Source: an uncultured Pelagibacteraceae bacterium
GTDB lineage: Bacteria > Pseudomonadota > Alphaproteobacteria > Pelagibacterales > Pelagibacteraceae
Reading direction: 5' to 3'
DNA: 64,000 nt
Assembly: GCA_902634325.1 (NCBI GenBank)
Contig: CACPJP010000003.1
Location: forward strand, 1 to 64,000
Position numbers and translations under genes: made by a program. Under the pieces are notes generated by a model. That model was not told the origin of the DNA and made no database searches. It saw only the letters and a list, made by a program, of their open reading frames with translations. Numbering within the stretch: the first letter of the stretch is position 1; every line of letters begins with the position of its first letter. This document shows, in pieces, positions 21,544 to 22,983 of this stretch.

Positions 21544-21771
21544 TTAGTTTTTTGATTGTGAAACTAAAATTTCTTTTATGATTTTTTGTTTTTTAAGATC
21601 ACTAAATTGTTCTTTGGAAAGATTTTCAGTTTCTTCTATGAAATCTTTTTCAAGCTTTTTTAAGATCTTTCTAGTTTTTAAAAACAAAAATAGGCAAACT
21701 GAAAATGTCAATAGAAACGAAGACCAAACATAAATTCCATGACCATCCATCAGAAAAAAATTCAAATTCAT
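21544..21771 (-). CDS. ccmD: Heme exporter protein CcmD
   Basis: Short single-TM protein, GHGIYVWSSFLLTF, between ccmC and ccmE. Confidence 0.85.
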   Translation of the reverse strand: MNLNFFLMDGHGIYVWSSFLLTFSVCLFLFLKTRKILKKLEKDFIEETENLSKEQFSDLKKQKIIKEILVSQSKN

Positions 21772-22475
21772 AGTTTTTTTAAACCTTTCTTTTTCACTCT
21801 AATTGTTTCTATCCTATATTTCATTAGAAAAATTAACGCAGAATACATCAAAAATGTAAATAACATGATTCCAAGGGGTATTAACATAGAAAAATGCACT
21901 GTTGTTTTCCCGCTTATATTGATACTTGAAGTCTGGTGAAGTGTAGACCACCAATTTACCGAATATTTTATTACTACAATATTTATTAATCCTAAAATAG
22001 AAACAGTAGTACAAATCTTAGAAGACTTCTCGGTGTTTTTAATAAATTTATAAGAAAAAATAAAAATTATATAAAAGAACATTAAAATTAGCATGGAAGT
22101 TAATCTTGCATCCCATGCCCACCATGTTCCCCAAGTTGGCTGTCCCCAAAGTGATCCGGTTATAATGGCTATAAAATTAAAAGCTAATCCTATAGGAGCA
22201 AGGCTTTTATAAATTAGACTTAAACTTTTAATTTTGAAAATAAAATTAACAATAGAAAGAAAACTAATTAGAGCGAAGCAAAATAAAGATATCCAAGCAG
22301 ATGGAACATGCACATACATAATTCTTGCTGCATCCCCTTGAATATAATCTTTTGGAGCAACAAATAATGAAAAAATAATTCCAATTATAATAATTGGTAT
22401 AATAAAAATTTTTATAAAGTTAAGAATCTTTCCGGTTAAATAGAAAATGTAACTAGGATTTAAAAATTTAATCAT
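21768..22475 (-). CDS. ccmC: Heme exporter protein CcmC
   Basis: YVHVPSAWIS, WGQPTWGTWWAWDARLTSM. Confidence 0.97.
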   Translation of the reverse strand: MIKFLNPSYIFYLTGKILNFIKIFIIPIIIIGIIFSLFVAPKDYIQGDAARIMYVHVPSAWISLFCFALISFLSIVNFIFKIKSLSLIYKSLAPIGLAFNFIAIITGSLWGQPTWGTWWAWDARLTSMLILMFFYIIFIFSYKFIKNTEKSSKICTTVSILGLINIVVIKYSVNWWSTLHQTSSINISGKTTVHFSMLIPLGIMLFTFLMYSALIFLMKYRIETIRVKKKGLKKL

Positions 22476-22526
22476 GTACTCATTTAACTGATTTTGAATG
22501 GGCTTTGAATGGGTTATTTTGTCGGC

Positions 22527-22618
22527 CTAGTTGAAAATTGAGAGGGAGATAAAGGAAGTAAGTGAATTTCCAACTAGACACTAACTCGAAAAGGCTATTG
22601 TTCATTTTAGCCGGAGTT
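22527..22618. ncRNA. Candidate structured intergenic element (two hairpins), strand uncertain
   Basis: CTAGTTG-a-AAATT (22527-22539) pairs with AATTT-c-CAACTAG (22565-22577), 25-nt purine-rich loop; second stem AACTC/GGCTA (22583-22597) with TAGCC/GAGTT (22608-22618). Confidence 0.45.
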
Positions 22619-22662
22619 TTGTATTAAATTTGTTAAATTTGTGGCGAAGTTTAAGAAAATAC

Positions 22663-22983
22663 TTAATTTGAAGGTTTATAATAACCTGATCCTCTTTTTT
22701 CAGAAAAAACTTCGTTGATTAAAGGATGTCGTAATGGTTTGTTAGAATCGTCAGCTATTAAATTTTGTTCTGATACATAAGCCTCATATGTAATTTCATT
22801 ATTTTCAGCAAGCAAATGATAAAAAGGTTGATCTTTTCTTGGACGTACATCTTTTGGGATAGATTGATACCACTCTTCTGAATTATTAAATTCAAAATCT
22901 ACATCATAGATCACGCCGCGAAAATTAAAATGTTTGTGTTTTACTATATCACCAATCGAAAATTTAGCTTTTTTTGAATCCAT
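22663..22983 (-). CDS. hspQ: Heat shock protein HspQ (YccV-like hemimethylated-DNA-binding domain)
   Basis: FSIGDIVKHKHFNFRGVIYDVD, DQPFYHLLAENNE, YVSEQNL. Confidence 0.92.
   Translation of the reverse strand: MDSKKAKFSIGDIVKHKHFNFRGVIYDVDFEFNNSEEWYQSIPKDVRPRKDQPFYHLLAENNEITYEAYVSEQNLIADDSNKPLRHPLINEVFSEKRGSGYYKPSN

Follow-up and report, generated by a model that had tools for sequence, protein, structure and literature searches.

The window analysed here is the whole stretch of 64,000 nucleotides at positions 1 to 64,000 of contig CACPJP010000003.1, from an uncultured Pelagibacteraceae bacterium (assembly GCA_902634325.1). On its minus strand, hspQ (22663-22983; YccV-like, TIGR02097 at 120 bits against a cut-off of 38, and PF08755) is separated by a gap of 187 bp from ccmC (21768-22475; TIGR01191 at 209 bits), the downstream gene in most genera, though not in all. 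Read from hspQ toward ccmC, the gap holds a candidate ChvI-type array of four 11-bp half-sites (TCGCCACAAAT, TTAACAAATTT, AATACAAAACT and CCGGCTAAAAT; 22604-22647), recognized by its family-wide architecture and matrix score; a spacer (22580-22603) of near-constant length and variable sequence, where a -10 element and the start site would be expected; a conserved hairpin (22525-22579), the putative body of a small RNA, which scores 60 bits (E = 5e-12) against our model R1; and a 3' flank (22476-22524) that is conserved in the genus and runs to the ccmC start without an intrinsic terminator. Outside the hairpin, this flank also holds ACAAAATA-CCCATTCAAA, conserved as a block in the genus, and, just before ccmC, a stretch that hardly varies across the genus. 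Scanning the window for sigma-70 promoters found no consensus promoter, the -10 element being weak in this genome, and a scan for terminators found no convincing intrinsic one after the hairpin.

On the minus strand the hairpin consists of 15 pairs (arms 22565-22579 and 22525-22539) around a 25-nt loop, CACUUACUUCCUUUAUCUCCCUCUC (22540-22564). A pattern search in the genus and the alignment described below give the genus-invariant core of this loop as ACUUCCUUUAUCUCCCUC (22542-22559), and the core for the family as AUCUCCCU, which resembles an anti-Shine-Dalgarno sequence. The preliminary description of the locus gave the 187-bp same-strand gap and the letters of stem and loop exactly as the sequence has them. 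It reported a 12-bp stem with one mismatch; the stem is present, and the supposed mismatch is a G·U pair once the minus strand is read. Minus-strand folding of 22500-22640 gives z = -2.70, with one of 200 shuffles equally good, and the plus strand gives z = +0.14 with a different fold. A second, bulged stem proposed at about 22585-22618 is free to vary in sequence in close relatives and overlaps array units 3-4; in this genome its pairing has therefore most likely arisen by chance. Of the suggested two-hairpin structure, only the main hairpin is conserved.

Conservation of the hairpin in the Pelagibacteraceae

The element lies just downstream of hspQ in all 14 genera of Pelagibacteraceae (SAR11) examined. 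Within the window's own genus, which corresponds to SAR11 subclade IIa, a 201-bp query found matches at this site in 25 genomes, its own included. Of 31 genomes of the genus, 24 contain the loop pattern ACTTCC(N)TTATCTCCCTC, each a single time; it is absent from 70 other genomes of the family or order, and the reversed pattern, used as a control, does not occur. Five of the seven genomes of the genus that lack the pattern have no detectable hspQ; in another a contig edge falls inside the array, and the last carries a loop variant differing by one letter. Thirteen further genera of the family have a hairpin after hspQ with different stem letters around the core AUCUCCCU, which is nearly invariant across the family.

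We tested 14 stem pairs in alignment A1, which contains 31 sequences, and found two-sided changes in every one, beyond those seen in both shuffled and slid controls. Pairing is possible in 97.7% of the stem cells versus 82.7% in shuffles, and none of 500 shuffles does as well by any of the measures used; in slid versions, 27-52% of the cells are paired. Compensatory changes keep the stem in every relative examined, the outcome of the covariation analysis that the preliminary description had proposed. The stem alignment contains 55 G·U cells versus a single A·C cell, and the RNA must therefore be that of the minus strand; from these sequences, its strand and structure are near certain. The Shine-Dalgarno-like reading of the plus strand is accordingly wrong or unneeded, and we agree with the earlier placing of the DNA in SAR11 and with the likening of the CU-rich minus-strand loop to the anti-Shine-Dalgarno loops of alphaproteobacterial small RNAs.

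Model R1 detects the element in 180 of about 194 genomes of the family, in an even draw of the order. Two more genomes, G034 and G062, were recovered once the search filters were loosened, and G077 has the element at 289546-289614 on the minus strand. In the sister family, R1 scores are at chance level only (E about 0.2-0.8), and another gene directly follows hspQ with no element there. Other Alphaproteobacteria give weak matches only, apart from one contig (G443:C48 4203-4265) with a SAR11-type element in the order hspQ-element-ccmC; the label of this genome assigns it to a different family within the class, and the contig may come from a relative or be a contaminant. A phage origin was considered and rejected, as none of eight exact loop matches in viral contigs has the hairpin. 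At one locus (L182, G080:C10 about 22226-22343) the 3' part of the element is tandemly duplicated, with loop and 3' arm occurring twice, 74 bp apart.

Adjacency to hspQ holds wherever the locus could be read, with the sole exception of a second copy in genome G069. This unlinked hairpin (L403, G069:C1 182093-182250) has no hspQ and no ccm gene after it. Its stem is unrelated to that of the first copy, and it has its own array of the same type and the same AUUAUCUCCCUC loop.

The upstream array and its candidate regulator

The conserved 44-bp array upstream of the hairpin comprises four half-sites (matrix consensus TTGCCTTAAAT, TAAACAATTTT, AATTCAAATCT and TAGACAAATTA) with a C at an exact 11-bp period, and family-wide it ends 17-26 bp from the stem in all cases. 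Matrices were trained on the arrays of the small RNA only, and scanning with them also picked out the unlinked second copy in G069. The window's array is the best match in the window, at 36.2 bits, and the next scores 8.4. Tandem direct repeats of 10-11 bp fit regulators of the OmpR family (compare PMC9275681), and a ChvI consensus, GCC-N8-GCC, cited in PMC9731502, has the same 11-bp period.

A phmmer search found three OmpR-family regulators in each of two genomes, G026 and G069: PhoB (TIGR02154, 327 bits), a PetR/OmpR-like protein, and one encoded beside a kinase. We identify the third as ChvI because the best NCBIfam match of the neighboring kinase is ChvG (E = 5e-78, under the curated cut-off). 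The full 44-bp matrix ranks the chvI upstream region 5th of 982 in G026 and 81st of 1366 in G069, the low rank arising because just two units are present there. A 22-bp matrix of units 1-2, tried after the longer one had missed chvI in G069, places the chvI upstream region as the top non-coding site of that genome (16.4 bits, in 75.8 kb of non-coding sequence) and first after the small RNA itself in G026 (13.3 bits). Each genome offers 100,000-150,000 positions, of which about 40 would be admissible; on that basis we estimate the chance of both top ranks at about 1e-7, before correction for three regulators and two matrices. Other high-scoring sites of the 22-bp matrix precede genes named from sequence as PBP1A-like, MraZ-like and bactofilin-like, consistent with the envelope role of ChvGI. 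PhoB was rejected as the regulator, since the pstS promoter region of G026 obtains no more than 0.1 with the array matrix. The small RNA is probably under ChvI control, with array unit 4 in a position that would overlap the -35 element.

A conserved site of the type TGCC-N7-ACAATTT stands directly before chvI in two genera (G026:C1 397208, minus strand; G069:C1 1297493, plus strand). It likely reflects autoregulation of ChvI in SAR11 and could be used to define the SAR11 ChvI regulon.

Candidate targets of the loop

The unpaired motif in the loop is CU-rich and conserved, and it is complementary to purine-rich sequences at ribosome-binding sites or in leaders. Target prediction with the loop, as the preliminary description had proposed, covered G026 and G069. 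Among 982 genes of G026, the top-ranked duplex pairs the loop with the proteorhodopsin leader (Bac_rhodopsin, PF01036, E = 5e-51): a perfect 13-nt match at about -74 to -62, with -22.4 kcal/mol. In G069 proteorhodopsin ranks 26th of 1366, through the Shine-Dalgarno sequence alone, and the predicted targets there have no consistent function. A match of at least 13 nt somewhere is reached by 76 of 2000 shuffled loops, so the 13-nt match in a single genome is only mildly unusual.

All ten proteorhodopsin leaders found in the window's genus carry the site GAGGGAGA between variable flanks, some 60-75 nt ahead of the start codon, and eight of them contain the exact 11-nt loop complement GAGGGAGATAA. 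All ten leaders fold into a hairpin with the site in its apical part, and covariation in this leader hairpin is not significant beyond shuffles. Where the small RNA has CCCUCA, the leader has U beside the site in four of six cases, and where it has CCCUCUC, the leader has A or G there in four of four; the leader letters are as pairing would ask, in a small sample of related genomes. In G029, both of the remaining exact 11-mers fall within coding frames, as does a near-match that was examined with them. Proteorhodopsin is a plausible target in subclade IIa, and its leader a good lineage-specific candidate. No proteorhodopsin is seen in the window's own genome, which is 61% complete. As an ancestral target proteorhodopsin was rejected, the leader site being absent from genera other than the window's and the G069 rank resting on the Shine-Dalgarno sequence. 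In several SAR11 genera the proteorhodopsin leaders (L411-L428) have a conserved layout in common, with a hairpin and, between it and the start codon, a GTTTAAATTTAAAC-like palindrome.

Alternative readings and relation to known RNAs

The preliminary description had offered a small RNA, an RNA derived from the hspQ 3' UTR, and a ccm leader, of which the first is the best supported. Were it a ccm-operon leader, the hairpin would act in cis within the ccmC transcript on translation or read-through, and its CU-rich loop would serve as a binding site for a protein or the ribosome. The window's genus offers some grounds for this: the gap to ccmC is near-constant in length, conserved blocks reach the ccmC start codon, and neither U-tract nor terminator is seen after the hairpin, because of which read-through into ccmC is possible in this subclade. 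In this genome, whose -10 element is also weak, the RNA may even belong to a longer transcript that includes ccmC. However, the element is kept after hspQ at five loci (L168, L171, L174, L182 and L183) where no ccmC lies downstream, and a leader is therefore no general answer; moreover, the unlinked copy in G069 precedes no ccm gene, and conservation is far higher in the loop than anywhere close to the start of ccmC. We consider a ccm leader unlikely. Release from the hspQ mRNA by processing, with the RNA lacking its own promoter, is quite unlikely in our judgment. It would suit an element that in every genus lies directly 3' of hspQ and on its strand, but it leaves unexplained both the hspQ-free copy and the phased 44-bp array, whose near-fixed distance from the hairpin marks a DNA-type signal and which is found again before chvI and before the unlinked copy. 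The sequence features instead make a promoter belonging to the element likely.

A purely structural hairpin, serving as hspQ terminator or RNA stabilizer with a loop that binds a cold-shock-type or other protein in place of RNA, seems very unlikely, although it draws on two observations. A U-tract directly follows the hairpin at L169, L172, L183 and L406, so that in these lineages the hairpin can double as a terminator, and a simple search found no Hfq-like protein in two genomes. Yet a terminator does not need an invariant loop of 8-18 nt, the window's genus has no T-tract, and orthologous leaders keep sites complementary to the loop.

We think it probable that the hairpin represents an independently transcribed family of anti-Shine-Dalgarno small RNAs of SAR11, probably controlled by ChvI and working in a mode like that of ChvR. 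The sequences themselves show the strand, the structure, its conservation, the array, the second copy and the complementarity of the loop, and from these features we infer transcription, ChvI binding, targets and the direction of regulation. An OmpR-family regulator, most likely ChvI, would bind the 4 x 11-bp array over the -35 element and activate a promoter downstream of hspQ, with minus-strand transcription starting close to the hairpin base. The product would be essentially a single long hairpin displaying AUCUCCCU in its large loop, terminated in several lineages by the U-tract that follows. The loop would pair with purine-rich Shine-Dalgarno regions or with loops of mRNA leaders and so alter translation or stability; in SAR11 IIa, it may form 11-13 bp of loop-loop pairing with the proteorhodopsin leader, some 62-74 nt ahead of the start codon. 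More tentatively, an ancient hairpin RNA may mediate ChvG-ChvI in SAR11 and have captured proteorhodopsin in its IIa version through loop-loop kissing, a scenario we regard as possible and still rather doubtful. If true, it would be an unusual combination of regulator and target, in which envelope status sets the level of a light-driven proton pump in hugely abundant ocean cells.

Transcription regulators are few in SAR11. Because of this, and because protein and mRNA levels disagree in P. ubique (PMC2864753), post-transcriptional regulators have been sought in the group. The element described here is family-wide and mostly confined to a single locus. Its covariation is unusually strong, and computational analysis has supplied a putative regulator for it and, by name, a candidate target. 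Two studies, Meyer 2009 (PMC2704228) and Stav 2019 (PMC6429828), applied the same type of search, also to SAR11. Their main texts name neither hspQ nor ccm; that of Stav 2019 describes, in HIMB5, one unnamed small RNA along with two highly ranked candidates whose function is unknown. The supplement to Stav 2019 may already include the element, which leaves priority uncertain.

Three known systems resemble the SAR11 RNA in its presumed working, and it belongs to none of them by structure, locus or Rfam comparison. ChvR of Caulobacter crescentus is an 84-nt, Hfq-independent RNA controlled by ChvI-ChvG and encoded beside recF, and its stem-loops pair with the chvT leader at -70 to -59 (PMC6237742). 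The SAR11 RNA is likewise predicted to pair far upstream of the start (about -74 to -62 for proteorhodopsin in G026) and, to judge from sequence, may also answer to ChvI, whose upstream region the array matrix puts first in two genomes; our simple search found no Hfq. ChvR has three stem-loops at the recF locus, whereas the SAR11 RNA has one conserved hairpin 3' of hspQ, and nothing indicates common descent. AbcR1 and AbcR2 of alpha-rhizobia silence mRNAs through the motif aSD1, CUCCUCCC, in a hairpin loop; they are controlled by LsrB/RpoH1 and carry two motifs and a larger number of stem-loops (PMC8844928). An anti-Shine-Dalgarno motif within a hairpin loop is common to both, but in contrast to the two motifs and multiple stem-loops of AbcR/alpha-r15, there is one hairpin with one motif here. 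The alpha-r8 siblings SisA-D carry a conserved pairing core, UUUCCUCCCU, and are sequestered by the G/A-rich hairpin loop of CrfA (PMC12559287), much like the loop-loop pairing proposed here; their core is single-stranded, 3' of a weak hairpin, whereas ours lies in the loop of a 15-pair hairpin. The covariance-model comparison called for by the preliminary description was carried out against Rfam 15 with the window and 13 loci of other genera, and no family matched the element at its gathering threshold; at relaxed thresholds the best weak matches reached about 15 bits, versus thresholds of 55-80. Elsewhere in the window, the Rfam ffh RNA (RF01793), a motif described from SAR11, occurs at 1644-1696 on the minus strand.
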